Below are positions 1,655-10,318 of a stretch of 34,496 nucleotides of DNA, one piece after another. Position 1 is the first letter of the stretch. Every line of letters begins with the position of its first letter. The position numbers were made by a program, and so were the translations under genes. The stretch is from Chlorobiota bacterium (GTDB taxonomy: Bacteria; Bacteroidota; Bacteroidia; Flavobacteriales; Flavobacteriaceae): assembly GCA_013153605.1 (NCBI GenBank), contig JAADED010000045.1, positions 1-34,496 of the forward strand, read 5' to 3'. Below the pieces are notes generated by a model. It was not told where the DNA came from, made no database searches, and worked only from the letters and a program-made list of their open reading frames with translations.

Positions 1655-2889
1655 CGCAAATTGTATTGTTTGATTTTCCGGTAAAGCGTGCGTTCCGATA
1701 TGCCCAATTCTTTGGCCGCCGGTTTGCGGCGTCCGTTGTGTTTTTCCAACGCTTTTTTGATCAGATCTTTCTCTTTTTCCACCAGCGAGAGGGTTTCTTC
1801 TTCCTTTTTTTCTTCCGCCACTTCGGCGGGCTTATGTTCTTCCACGATGGTGTAGGCTGGTTCTTCCACTTTGGCGTCGTCGGGGCGGGCGGGCGGAGCT
1901 TCTATGGACACCACTTTTTCGGGTTTGGTATCCGCCGGGGCGTTGAGGGCCGGTTGTCCGCTATTGACCAAATCGTTGACCACCGTTTTGAGCCGGTCCA
2001 CGTCTTTTTTGAGTTCAAACAGAAATTTGAAAATCAGCTCTCTGTCTTTGTCGAAATCGAAGCGGGCTTTCTCGCCGGCCACCACTTCGGGCAAGTTGCG
2101 CTTGTAATCGGGTAAATATTTACGAAGAATTTCGGGAGTGATGGTGCGTGTCTCCTCCAAAATGGACATTTGTTCCACCAGATTGCGCAATTCCCGGATG
2201 TTGCCGGGCCAATGGTATTTTTTGAGCATTTCCTGGGCTTCGGGCGTTAGGCGCACGGGCGGCGTGTGGTATTTGTAGGCGAAATCCGAGGCAAATTTTC
2301 GAAACAGGAGGATCACGTCGTCTCCCCGTTCGCGGAGGGGAGGCAAAGGGATTTCCACCGTGTTGAGGCGATAGTAGAGGTCCTCGCGGAATTTCCCTTC
2401 CTCCACCAGGCGGCGCAAATCCTTATTGGTGGCCGCTACGATGCGCACGTCGGTTTTTTCCACTTTGGACGAACCCACTTTGATAAATTCCCCCGTTTCC
2501 AACACCCGAAGGAGGCGTACCTGCGTAGTGAGAGGCAATTCGCCCACTTCGTCCAAAAAGAGGGTTCCTCCGTTGGCCACTTCGAAATATCCCTTGCGGG
2601 TGCCGGTAGCTCCGGTGAAGGCCCCTTTTTCGTGTCCGAACAATTCGCTGTCGATGGTGCCTTCGGGAATGGCGCCGCAATTGATGGCAAAATAGGGACC
2701 GTGCTTGCGATGCGAAAAATGGTGAATGATTTTGGGTATGGTTTCTTTACCCGTTCCGCTTTCGCCGGTTACCAGCACGCTGATATCGGTAGGGGCCACG
2801 CGAATGGCCCGTTGGATGGCGTGGTTGAGTTTGGGATTGTTGCCGATGATGCCGAACCGTTGCTTGACCGATTGAATGTCCGTTGTCAT
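1651..2889 (-). CDS. Sigma-54-dependent transcriptional activator (no receiver domain)
   Basis: This is a 412-residue bacterial enhancer-binding protein that remodels RpoN-RNA polymerase by ATP hydrolysis. The AAA+ domain spans about residues 13-245, with Walker A GESGTGKE at 42-49, the sigma-54-contacting loop GAFTGA at 89-94 and Walker B GGTLFLDE at 107-114. Arginine-finger region residues (REDLYYRLN) follow. A charged linker of ~110 residues leads to a Fis-type helix-turn-helix at the C-terminus (KELGISERTLYRKIKQYNL). There is no N-terminal receiver, GAF or PAS domain, so the protein begins almost directly at AAA+. Control must come through a partner or expression level. It is the first gene of a tight unit with lptE, which suggests an envelope-linked regulon. 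Confidence 0.93.
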   Translation of the reverse strand: MTTDIQSVKQRFGIIGNNPKLNHAIQRAIRVAPTDISVLVTGESGTGKETIPKIIHHFSHRKHGPYFAINCGAIPEGTIDSELFGHEKGAFTGATGTRKGYFEVANGGTLFLDEVGELPLTTQVRLLRVLETGEFIKVGSSKVEKTDVRIVAATNKDLRRLVEEGKFREDLYYRLNTVEIPLPPLRERGDDVILLFRKFASDFAYKYHTPPVRLTPEAQEMLKKYHWPGNIRELRNLVEQMSILEETRTITPEILRKYLPDYKRNLPEVVAGEKARFDFDKDRELIFKFLFELKKDVDRLKTVVNDLVNSGQPALNAPADTKPEKVVSIEAPPARPDDAKVEEPAYTIVEEHKPAEVAEEKKEEETLSLVEKEKDLIKKALEKHNGRRKPAAKELGISERTLYRKIKQYNLR

Positions 2890-2921
2890 AAAAAATTAAT
2901 AAGGTTTTTATTAATGATTGG

Positions 2922-4352
2922 TCATACCCGTTTTCCCAACAAAGTGGCGCCGGTGGTGTCTTCGATATGAACATTAACGAAATCTCCCGGCTTTTCTTTA
3001 CCCGTTTTCGGAAATACGACCACCGCATTTTGCAAGGTGCGTCCCATCCAATGGGCGTCCGATTTTTTCGAATTCCCTTCGATCAACACTTCAAAGGTGC
3101 GTCCCACGTAATTTTTCATCCGGGCTTTGGAATGGGCGTTTTGTTTGGCAATGATTTCGTTGAGCCGCCGGATTTTTATACCTCGCGGCACATCGTCTTC
3201 ATACAGGCGGGCGGCCGCCGTGCCGGGACGTTCCGAATAGGCGAACATGTACCCGAAATCGAACACCACTTCGTCCATTAGAGAGAGGGTTTGGGCATGG
3301 TCCTCTTCGGTTTCGCCCGGAAAGCCGGCAATCACGTCGTGCGAGAGGGCGATGTCGGGAATGCGTTCCCGGATGCGGCGGATCAAATCCAAATATTGCT
3401 CGCGCGTATATTGGCGGTTCATTCGCCGGAGGATGCGGTTGCTTCCCGATTGAAAAGGGAGATGGATATACCGTCCCACGTTCGGATGACGGGCAATCAC
3501 GTCGATAACCCGGTCGGTCATGTCCTGGGGGTTGGAAGTGGTGAAGCGAATGCGCATATCGGGAAAAGCCGCGGCCACCCGGTCGAGCAATTCCGCAAAA
3601 TCCACGGCCGAAGCACGAACTTCGGGCGGTTGCTTGTAAAATTCTTTTTTGGGGCCTCCGCCGTACCAGAGGTAGCTGTCCACATTTTGACCCAAGAGGG
3701 TAACTTCCTTAAACCCTTTGTCCCGTAACCGGGCGATTTCTCGGAGGATGGTTTCCGGATTCCGGCTGCGCTCCCGCCCGCGGGTGTAGGGCACCACGCA
3801 AAAGGTGCACATATTGTCGCATCCCCGGGTAATGGACACAAAAGCCGAGATGCCATTGGACATGATATGCACCGGCTCGATGTCGTCGTAAGTTTCTTCC
3901 AGGCTCAGGAGGACGTTCACCGCTTTGCGGCCGTCTTCCAAATCTTTGATCATGGCGGGCAATTGGCGGTAGGCGTCGGGCCCGGCCACCAGGTCCACCA
4001 ATTCCTCTTCTTCCAATAATTTATCTTTGAGCCGCTCGGCCATGCATCCCACCAATCCTACTTTCAGATCGGGATTGTGTCGTTTGATGCTTTTGAATTG
4101 TTTCAGCCGGTTGCGTACGGTTTGTTCGGCTTTGTCGCGAACGGCGCAGGTATTGACCAAAATCAAATCCGCCAGGCGGGGATCCGAAGTGATGGTATAT
4201 CCTTGTCCTTCAAGGATACTGGCGATGATTTCCGAATCGTTGGCATTCATCTGGCATCCGTAGGTCTCGATATATACGTGTCGCAAACCCCCGCCCCGCC
4301 CGCGTTCGCGAACCGGGATGCGCGCAAAAGTATGTGCTGATTTTTGATTCAT
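2922..4352 (-). CDS. miaB: tRNA-2-methylthio-N6-dimethylallyladenosine synthase MiaB
   Basis: This radical-SAM methylthiotransferase adds the 2-methylthio group to i6A37 of tRNAs reading UNN codons. The 476-residue protein has three domains in the usual order. The N-terminal domain carries the auxiliary cluster cysteines at about 33 (ETYGCQMN), 69 (VNTCAVR) and 103 (VGCMAE). The radical SAM core has CxxxCxxC at about 178/182/185 (RGCDNMCTFCVVPYTRGRE). The C-terminal TRAM domain ends in GATLLGKRV. I take the ATG at 4352; the frame extends 4 codons further to a TTG at 4364, but a TATCTTTG promoter element lies only 18 bp upstream of the ATG. It is separated from the sigma-54 activator by 32 bp and may be co-transcribed with it. 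Confidence 0.96.
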   Translation of the reverse strand: MNQKSAHTFARIPVRERGRGGGLRHVYIETYGCQMNANDSEIIASILEGQGYTITSDPRLADLILVNTCAVRDKAEQTVRNRLKQFKSIKRHNPDLKVGLVGCMAERLKDKLLEEEELVDLVAGPDAYRQLPAMIKDLEDGRKAVNVLLSLEETYDDIEPVHIMSNGISAFVSITRGCDNMCTFCVVPYTRGRERSRNPETILREIARLRDKGFKEVTLLGQNVDSYLWYGGGPKKEFYKQPPEVRASAVDFAELLDRVAAAFPDMRIRFTTSNPQDMTDRVIDVIARHPNVGRYIHLPFQSGSNRILRRMNRQYTREQYLDLIRRIRERIPDIALSHDVIAGFPGETEEDHAQTLSLMDEVVFDFGYMFAYSERPGTAAARLYEDDVPRGIKIRRLNEIIAKQNAHSKARMKNYVGRTFEVLIEGNSKKSDAHWMGRTLQNAVVVFPKTGKEKPGDFVNVHIEDTTGATLLGKRV

Positions 4353-8795: not shown

Positions 8796-8828
8796 TAATA
8801 AATTAAACTTCCCTCCCCGGGAGGGAAG
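8796..8828 (-). terminator. Intrinsic terminator after the Roadblock-like pair
   Basis: The 21-bp near-perfect palindrome CTTCCCTC-ccccg-GAGGGAAG type (8808-8828) can form a stem of at least 8 bp. On the minus strand it is followed by a T-rich stretch (TTTAATTTATTATT). It lies 43 bp after the stop of the 8871-9239 gene. Confidence 0.7.
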
Positions 8829-8870
8829 CCGAAAAGGGTTCAGCCTTTGTCTTCGGGATCGGCCGCCCTA

Positions 8871-9239
8871 TCAGGCGGTCAAGGCTTCTTTAAAGGCTTT
8901 TTGGGCGTTGGGAATGGCAATGTTGAGGAGGATTCCCAAATTCACTTTGGAATCGTCCACGAACATTACCCATTGATAATCGTCAAAGATCAATACTACA
9001 ACCAAACCTCCGTCCACTTTAAGGAGGTAATAATCTTTTAAAGTCGGAAATCCCGCTCCGTCAAGGGCCTTTTTAATATAAGTGGTTACTTGATCGAACA
9101 AGGCCGAAGCTTGGGGGTTGGAGTTGTACCCTACCAACGGAGTTCCTACACCGCTGGGATAAATGTCGGTGGAGACCAGGGCATCACCCAAGTCGTTTCT
9201 CAACACTTCGATGGCTTTTTGTAGTTTTTTGATGTCCAT
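8871..9239 (-). CDS. Roadblock/LC7-like small protein (putative)
   Basis: The 122-residue product has no signal or membrane helix. It reads as helix (LQKAIEVLRNDLG), strand (DALVSTDIY), strand (GTPLVGYNS), long helix (ASALFDQVTTYIKKAL), three strands (DYYLLKVDGG, LVVVLIFDD, YQWVMFVDD) and a closing helix (LGILLNIAIPNAQKAFKEAL). That order and the ~120-residue length are those of Roadblock/LC7 (MglB-type) proteins, which dimerise and often regulate small GTPases. The assignment is by predicted topology, not by a diagnostic motif. It follows the 9244-9984 gene by 4 bp and ends at a strong terminator, so the two form a closed operon. No GTPase gene is nearby. Confidence 0.6.
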   Translation of the reverse strand: MDIKKLQKAIEVLRNDLGDALVSTDIYPSGVGTPLVGYNSNPQASALFDQVTTYIKKALDGAGFPTLKDYYLLKVDGGLVVVLIFDDYQWVMFVDDSKVNLGILLNIAIPNAQKAFKEALTA

Positions 9240-9243
9240 ATTT

Positions 9244-9984
9244 TTAAAGTTTTAATTTGTCCAGGTGATTTAAAAATTCTCGTACGCGAGGATGAATGAT
9301 GGTGAGGGCCGTACCTTTATTTATATAATCGGCTTCAAGAAATACGAATACGGCATATTGGCTCCCGAAAGAAATGTCTAACGCATAAGGACCGAAATGA
9401 AATAGGGCAAAATCGCTTACCCTGATATGCGGATTATCTTTCAAGAGCTTAATTAAGCCTTTAATTTTGGCATTGTGATATTTCATGTTTTGAAAAAGAG
9501 GAATACGAGTAATATGGGATAAAATCTGTTGGGTCTTTAAATCGTAAAGGAGCATGGCCGAAATAGGGTGATGAATGAGTTTTTCTATTTCTTTCACCAA
9601 AGAATTCATGCGAACTTCCACAATGGCCTTATGTCGCGGATCTATAGGTGGACGGGAAATAGGGGACGGAGATTTTTTTGAAGTTATGGGGTTTGTAGGA
9701 GTTGCGTTTTTTTGATTTTGATTTTTTCCGGCGGAGAGAGTGGAAGAAGTAGTTTTGAAGGGGGCATTGGAACTGATTCCCGGTTTGCGAAGAGAACCGG
9801 AAGAAGGAGCGGGGGCTTTCTTTTTATTAAAATTCAAGGATTGTTCTTTTTTGAGTTCGATTTTCTTTCTTACGGCCGGCTTTTTTACTCCTCCGTTCTT
9901 GAGAGAAGCGGAAGTTGCTTTCCCGTTTTTGCGTGAGACGTCTTGGGACTTAGGATCCCCGAACAAGAGTTTCCACACTTTCAT
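9244..9984 (-). CDS. Basic disordered N-terminus plus Roadblock-like C-terminal domain (putative)
   Basis: I do not recognise the whole protein. Residues 1-~125 of 246 are low-complexity, rich in Lys, Ser, Asn and Pro (for example KKPAVRKKIELKKEQ), and probably disordered and strongly basic. Residues ~125-246 form a compact domain: helix (VRMNSLVKEIEKLIH), strand (SAMLLYDLKTQQILSHI), helix (KYHNAKIKGLIKLLKDN), strands (DFALFHFGPYALDISFG, QYAVFVFLEA) and a final helix (PRVREFLNHLDKL). This again suggests a Roadblock-like fold, and it may pair with the product of the next gene. The DNA is visibly AT-richer than its neighbours. Transcription probably starts at the TACCTTTG promoter at 10033. Confidence 0.6.
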   Translation of the reverse strand: MKVWKLLFGDPKSQDVSRKNGKATSASLKNGGVKKPAVRKKIELKKEQSLNFNKKKAPAPSSGSLRKPGISSNAPFKTTSSTLSAGKNQNQKNATPTNPITSKKSPSPISRPPIDPRHKAIVEVRMNSLVKEIEKLIHHPISAMLLYDLKTQQILSHITRIPLFQNMKYHNAKIKGLIKLLKDNPHIRVSDFALFHFGPYALDISFGSQYAVFVFLEADYINKGTALTIIHPRVREFLNHLDKLKL

Positions 9985-10318
9985 TTTTAAATTGTTTTAT
10001 GCGAGTTAGTTATATTTCCCCCGATTAATCAGCAAAGGTAAAATAAATTTTTTTAGAATTTCAACCATTCCGAAACCTTAACTATTTAATTTTTTTATAT
10101 GATTTTTGTGGGTATAAAGCTAATAAAAAATGTAATTTTTAACAAGCTTTGGGAGTAAAAAAATGAAAAATCAACACCCGTTAATGATTTTTTCAATTTC
10201 TTTAAATTCTTTTCCATCTTTCCTAACATCACTTCCATTTTTTTGTGGGGAAAAATGAACCTCTTCTTATTTCATCCGCTCGAAATATGCTATCTTGCGA
10301 GCAAGAACCATGCCGCCG
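9985..10318. other. AT-rich divergent intergenic region
   Basis: This stretch of ~330 bp separates the minus-strand Roadblock-like pair from plus-strand serC. It is very AT-rich with many A and T runs. It holds the minus promoter at 10033-10064. A TATCTTGC-like element at 10291-10298 may serve serC. A 31-codon ATG frame at 10163-10258 has no support beyond being open. I see no RNA gene or riboswitch. Confidence 0.6.
10033..10064 (-). promoter_or_regulatory. Promoter of the Roadblock-like operon
   Basis: On the minus strand TTG (10064-10062), a 21-bp spacer and TACCTTTG (10040-10033) match the Bacteroidota TTG-N17-23-TAnnTTTG pattern. The -7 element ends 49 bp upstream of the ATG at 9984. Confidence 0.6.

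Follow-up and report, generated by a model that had tools for sequence, protein, structure and literature searches.

In the window analysed here (34,496 nt, representing contig C93 of the 1.6-Mb, 96% complete draft genome G000), two adjacent minus-strand genes encode small proteins, P0002 and P0001, whose predicted structures support a Roadblock/LC7 fold for both. On sequence comparison the two are diverged paralogues, and no GTPase of MglA size was detected in the same genome. We give an even chance to the reading that they constitute a membrane-tethered Roadblock heterodimer acting as a GTPase-independent docking platform.

The gene pair and its predicted folds

The upstream gene of the pair, P0002 (positions 9244-9984, minus strand), encodes a tailed Roadblock/LC7-fold protein of 246 aa, proposed below as the variable subunit, and is followed after 4 nt by P0001 (8871-9239, minus strand), which encodes a short, 122-aa protein of the same predicted fold, proposed as the constant subunit. 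The coordinates include both stop codons, and this arrangement agrees with the two-gene unit of the original prediction. The pair is flanked by a divergent gene for a class-V aminotransferase (SerC by eye) and by a gene for an Omp28-like lipoprotein.

The AlphaFold2 model of P0001, built on a 15-row family alignment (pLDDT 88.0, pTM 0.80), runs in the order H-E-E-H-E-E-E-H, which is the Roadblock order. The C-terminal domain of P0002 (residues 113-246; 9247-9648, minus strand), supported by AlphaFold2, fold search and profiles and modelled on a 12-row alignment (pLDDT 88.3, pTM 0.83), shows the same order with one short extra helix. The helix-strand-strand-helix-three-strand-helix topology, previously read by eye from the letters, is thereby reproduced in the models of both proteins. 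In VIA-align, P0001 scored Z 16.4 against Roadblock3 (9jue; 114 aligned residues, 1.9 Å) and the P0002 domain matched MglB best (6hjm; Z 14.4, 122 aligned residues, 2.3 Å). Foldseek returned TM scores to the query of 0.57-0.81 for P0001 and weaker ones of 0.50-0.68 for the P0002 domain among the matches listed; across the two methods, the matches of the pair included MglB, Asgard Roadblocks and Ragulator subunits.

Profilin-like folds were rejected for both proteins by VIA-align: 5zzb and 5zza reached 10.6 and 10.3 with P0001, versus 16.4 for the best Roadblock, and entries of Tyr p 36, which we take to be a profilin, reached 10.9 with P0002, versus 14.4.

The sequence libraries tried miss this fold. 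Both proteins were without a match to Pfam Robl_LC7 (PF03259), the cut-off not being reached, and searches of Pfam, NCBIfam and PDB sequences with either protein gave no credible match. PDB sequence searches retrieved no Roadblock with the P0001 profile (best E 0.6), with the P0002 profile (best E 0.03, to COP9 signalosome subunit 1) or with P0002 alone (best E 0.15). Structure prediction of each protein followed by fold search nevertheless preferred Roadblock/LC7, and in AlphaFold2, Foldseek and VIA-align alike the models support the fold originally assigned to the two products.

The pair is also AT-richer than its neighbours, as had been noticed from the sequence: GC is 0.454 in P0001, 0.44 in the P0002 tail and 0.376 in the P0002 domain, compared with 0.514 for the window, and GC3 is 0.37-0.53 in the pair versus 0.59-0.68 in seven other window genes. 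Since the GC of the pair falls below that of the rest of its own locus in all ten related loci measured (by 0.03 to 0.17), the low GC is a family trait and not peculiar to the window copy.

A promoter and a terminator belonging to the pair alone had been claimed as well. A promoter-like TTG-N21-TACCTTTG site lies at 10033-10064 (minus strand), 48 nt upstream of the P0002 start, and fits a Bacteroidota-type promoter consensus, but a generic sigma-70 scan found nothing at 10033-10064. This is the sole match in the window to TTG-N21-TANNTTTG, a pattern whose spacing was picked to fit this very site (0.34 matches expected; at least one match in 30 of 100 shuffles). Across the window (1-34496), TANNTTTG is enriched, with 37 occurrences against 18.7 expected, a signature of Bacteroidota-type promoters. 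Downstream of P0001 there is a terminator-like stem-loop of 11 pairs (8806-8830, minus strand) with a modest T-run, but the five terminator-like sites found in the region, against 3.2 expected, form a total not clearly above that of shuffles.

Divergence, pairing and distribution of the two genes

Genes of the P0001 family were read at 17 places, namely the window, 15 loci from a scan of species genomes and a divergent copy at G154:C15; G151:C11, which looks like the other end of a gene cut in G151:C112, was not counted as a place. A second Roadblock-like gene is located directly upstream on the same strand in 13 of the 17, with gaps of 2-44 nt in the 12 measured, and the homologue and neighbourhood survey supports the pairing of the two genes. 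At G154:C15, the upstream gene encodes a 293-aa Lys/Pro-rich protein with no Roadblock domain detected, while at L048, L052 and L053, which share flanking genes, a six-frame profile search found no partner. With no partner at these three of the 17 places, P0001 may also function singly or as a homodimer. The flanking genes differ among most lineages read, G156 and G151 sharing theirs. In L042, ~3.3 kb from the pair, there is a 1461-aa gene that by eye looks like Cas9, with a cas1-like start after it (L042:11647-16032).

Several comparisons bear on the paralogy of the two subunits. Comparison of the P0001 family with the P0002-domain family by hhalign gave 98.8%, and BLASTP of the long subunit of G128 against P0001 gave 30% identity over 71 aa (E 3e-10 for that single comparison). 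In leave-one-out searches all 12 partner domains were found by the profile of the other 11, with scores ranging from 18.9 bits (P0002, the weakest) to 100.9 bits; P0001-type genes at four loci not represented in the partner profile are picked up by it as well. The row sets used covered 10 places (A1), 15 of the 17 places (A3, omitting L055, where a contig end cuts the gene, and L039, the divergent G154 copy) and 12 of the 13 paired partners (A4, omitting L037).

The 14 P0001 homologues are 43-67% identical to P0001 (29% for the divergent G154:C15 copy), and 23 of the 122 P0001 positions are invariant, whereas the partner domains are 11-19% identical to the P0002 domain. We propose that P0001 is a conserved, weakly acidic constant subunit and, on these identities, that P0002 is a fast-evolving variable one.

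The titles of 11 of the 15 scan contigs are those of Flavobacteriales or Flavobacteriaceae MAGs. By a merged profile, seven of the ten genomes tested contain the family, among them six of the nine within the genus, most matches being members of the alignment; two of the three pair-negative genomes of the same genus are only 80% and 89% complete. The P0001 profile matched a single genome in a phylum-wide sample of 395, which was G000 itself, and a search of 149 family members with P0002 alone returned nothing but P0002. Weak matches elsewhere (E > 0.003) were treated as chance. A phage or plasmid origin was likewise rejected: tblastn with P0001 finds nothing in phage and plasmid collections, and an IMG/VR scan finds no relative.

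GTPase searches, the N-terminal tail and alternative readings

The window contains no GTPase gene adjacent to the pair, as originally noted, and this observation can be widened to the genome: a full match to a GTPase of MglA size was found in none of ten genomes, comprising the G000 draft, from which, at 96% completeness, a GTPase could be missing, and nine relatives. Across the ten genomes no PF00025 (Arf) match lay in a frame shorter than 313 aa, and those of G000 were confined to frames measuring 403 and 871 aa. Below 300 aa, PF08477 added only partial, sub-cut-off matches, covering 36-40 of the 119 positions. These fell in four EngB-sized frames (204-249 aa) of G151-G154; the sizes of the large GTPase-type frames in these genomes fit translation factors, Der/MnmE and Era. 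As a positive control, the same PF00025 search was applied to seven Bacteroidota genomes taken from other families. All seven yielded frames of 183-280 aa, and in every genome one or more of these lay no further than about 320 bases from a Robl_LC7 match. Robl_LC7 matches are present in 31 of the 395 genomes of the phylum sample, and no canonical Roadblock (PF03259) was found in G000. An MglA-like GTPase, as an MglB-type GAP would have beside it or elsewhere in the genome, was found in neither place.

In the genus g128 (Flavobacterium-like), none of nine genomes has a PF00025 frame that small, though Robl_LC7 genes are present. In this genus a Robl_LC7 gene is followed by a conserved gene of 124-126 aa (L085-L091, L097:4516-5285 and L098:4538-5261), which had no Pfam match in the two tested. 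Reading of seven g128 loci showed the Roadblock gene and then the second small gene, with no MglA-sized GTPase adjoining; among the neighbours named by eye are lspA and, at L098, obg, and in G276 a larger GTPase gene, obg by eye, adjoins the Roadblock pair. Homology of P0001 to the second g128 gene is not claimed (hhalign 10.8%, BLASTP E 0.17).

These searches bear on whether the pair regulates a housekeeping GTPase, an EngB-sized protein or an ATPase in trans, in the way MglB acts on MglA, which we consider unlikely. Passages of one survey describe MglB and the conservon protein CvnB9 as acting with small GTPases (PMC4316618), possible targets exist in the large GTPase-type frames and in the partial PF08477 matches of G151-G154, and the G276 Roadblock pair adjoins a gene reading as obg. 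However, an MglA-sized full match was found in none of the ten genomes while the control Arf search succeeded in seven of seven, and the pair is accessory, being detected in seven of ten genomes (six of nine within the genus), which would be unexpected if it regulated a housekeeping GTPase.

The N-terminal region of P0002 (residues 1-112; 9649-9984, minus strand) is by composition basic and Ser/Pro/Thr-rich, with 25 K/R against 4 D/E (net +21) and 31% P+S+T, and is probably disordered. The basic N-terminal tail of the original prediction is therefore present, but with a length of about 112-115 residues and not ~125. It begins with the sequence MKVWKLLFG (9958-9984, minus strand), a candidate amphipathic membrane anchor recognised by motif comparison, and this region is the most hydrophobic 8-residue stretch of the tail. 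A W/F (W/L..F) motif of this kind opens all nine tailed partners, P0002 included (MWKIFG, MWNIFK, MKVWKLLFG and similar), and none of 175 mechanically called background ORFs, a contrast that is partly circular because the motif was defined on the sequences in which it was counted. Residues 2-9 are unmatched in hydrophobicity by other tail stretches in four of the nine tailed partners and matched in five. The net charge of the nine tails ranges from +6 to +21, with P0002 at +21.

Among related proteins, tail-less partners occur in four-gene operons, and the G154 operon encodes FWKRLFG near the C-terminus of its separate 293-aa protein, in which no Roadblock domain was detected. One long-tailed relative stands alone: L040, whose tail is acidic (net -17), has neither the W/F motif nor a short partner. 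Long relatives of the tailed partner, in frames of 277-350 aa, are located at L040:674-1675, G155:C196:8399-8746 and G156:C254:2281-2598.

Of the binding partners first suggested for the tail (membrane, nucleic acid or an acidic partner), the conserved W/F motif favours a possible role at the membrane. The MinD C-terminal peptide is a short membrane-targeting sequence, and by analogy the motif may resemble amphipathic helices of this type; a literature search with that peptide returned no match. Membrane-targeting amphipathic helices are described in passages of a review, in which the MinD peptide sequence does not appear (PMC6803595).

Nucleic acid and acidic proteins are kept as rival ligands of the basic tail, in which case the pair would be a nucleoid- or RNA-associated adaptor; this we regard as quite unlikely. 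The tail's charge and its P/S/T content would suit such a role, as would the net positive charge of all nine tailed partners and a weak PurA-like match in the 293-aa protein of G154 (E 0.023). That match is, however, below the cut-off, and the conserved part of the tails is the hydrophobic W/F start and not the basic sequence.

A role in polarity or motility, proposed at the outset alongside a scaffold, did not find support, and the scaffold pair fits best. Control of gliding polarity, or of the type IX secretion/gliding motor, is very doubtful: MglB provides a precedent in Myxococcus and G000 carries gldJ, but gldJ is present in all 12 genomes tested, including three of the same genus in which no pair was found, and among the neighbours identified beside the copies read no motility gene was recognised by eye. 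That the pair is a decaying remnant of an MglAB-type locus, devoid of present function, is highly improbable in spite of the missing GTPase, AT-richness and patchy distribution, given intact frames in distant species, the 23 invariant positions of P0001, a pairing kept across different neighbourhoods and a promoter-like site in place.

A proposed docking platform and its relation to known Roadblock systems

In G155, G151 and G154, the P0001-like gene is the last of a four-gene operon whose first members encode a canonical Roadblock and a protoglobin. In G155 and G154, Pfam matches were obtained for protoglobin (E 5.7e-16 and 9.9e-17) and Robl_LC7 (E 3.1e-14 and 1.9e-10), while in G151 the Roadblock was identified by search and the protoglobin by eye; by locus, the protoglobin is Pfam-confirmed at L036/L051 and L039 and read by eye at L037. 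Operons of a canonical Roadblock, a protoglobin and a P0001-type gene lie at L036:9552-11344, L037:1-1696, L039:7480-9692 and, with a presumed protoglobin, L035 ~2086-3873, and a haem-sensing Roadblock relay is one possible function for them. A canonical Roadblock is also found upstream of one pair in G156; by eye, neither it nor a protoglobin occurs beside the window pair, and since no PF03259 match was found in G000, that genome shows no operon of this type. At L047 (3120-8369), from a Chlorobiota MAG, the N-terminus of the partner resembles DUF4388 (E 5e-5, below the cut-off). The pair is divergent there from a regulator gene of the SiaC family (E 8.9e-24) and from two genes reading by eye as a response regulator/sensor kinase. 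The gene contexts of the relatives point to signalling, the long subunit being the exchangeable one. Literature searches on Roadblock with protoglobin or DUF4388 found nothing, and those with Flavobacterium gave none relevant among the matches listed.

From the computed features, namely fold, paralogy, gene pairing, N-terminal motif, charge and the non-detection of a GTPase, we infer heterodimerisation, membrane binding and a GTPase-independent scaffold role. P0001 and P0002 would together form a Roadblock/LC7 heterodimer, or be part of a larger Roadblock assembly. The W/F-rich, probably amphipathic motif of P0002 and the long basic tail, probably disordered and acting as a tether, would keep the heterodimer at the inner membrane, where it could serve as a docking platform with no GTPase involved. 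Such a scaffold would take its input from swappable modules, such as the protoglobin and canonical Roadblock that share an operon in the relatives or the weakly matched DUF4388 that replaces the tail.

MglB, the GAP of MglA in Myxococcus and Thermus, has the same fold as the models across the whole domain, the last helix included; against 6hjm, P0001 scored Z 15.5 and the P0002 domain Z 14.4. In contrast to MglB, the pair has ~10% identity to it, consists of two unlike subunits with a long N-terminal tail on one, and comes from a genome in which no MglA was detected. The orphan MglB homologues are a recognised group: according to passages of the survey by Wuichet and Sogaard-Andersen, 421 of 749 homologues are coupled to MglA and 328 are not, none of the orphans being experimentally characterised at that time (PMC4316618). 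Roadblock genes without a coupled GTPase are the shared feature; the pair differs in missing Pfam Robl_LC7, in being unlike paralogues and in that no MglA was found in the genome, not just nearby. Passages of an MglA-MglB paper mention C-terminal extensions in some orphan MglBs (PMC6785124), whereas the extension of P0002 is N-terminal. MglC of Myxococcus xanthus is described as a Roadblock paralogue so diverged that its identity to MglB is <9%, and as a binder of another Roadblock protein (PMC7949163); it acts in the MglA system, as a homodimer sandwiched between MglB homodimers.

Globin-Roadblock coupling has a precedent in HGbRL of Methylacidiphilum, a globin-Roadblock sensor which, from the passages of the source at hand, is a fusion protein of one genus with an MglA-like GTPase also present (PMC4476040). 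The protoglobin operon of the relatives couples the two as well, but in separate genes, and was not found beside the window pair. No published account of this Roadblock pair was seen among the matches listed, and we regard it as a variant of the orphan MglB class.

In terms of how it would work, the pair may be likened to Ragulator, in which a membrane-anchored subunit holds the MP1/p14 (LAMTOR2/3) heterodimer, unlike Roadblocks serving as a membrane docking platform; Ragulator chains are among the structural matches. The pair differs in that its presumed anchor is fused to one of the Roadblocks and looks amphipathic, and in having no Rag GTPase. More tentatively, it may represent a bacterial equivalent of Ragulator working without a GTPase, a membrane-tethered heterodimer of a constant and a variable subunit, the latter with swappable anchors or sensor inputs such as the amphipathic tail, DUF4388 or an operon-encoded protoglobin as haem sensor.

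Current understanding of bacterial Roadblocks centres on their partnership with small GTPases, and many orphans are without a known job. The present pair is a portable unit of two genes, missed by the sequence libraries tried and residing in genomes in which no such GTPase was found, and it makes the question of what a Roadblock does without a GTPase directly testable. If the Ragulator-like reading is true, Roadblock pairs would be a signalling platform in their own right, not accessories of GTPases.
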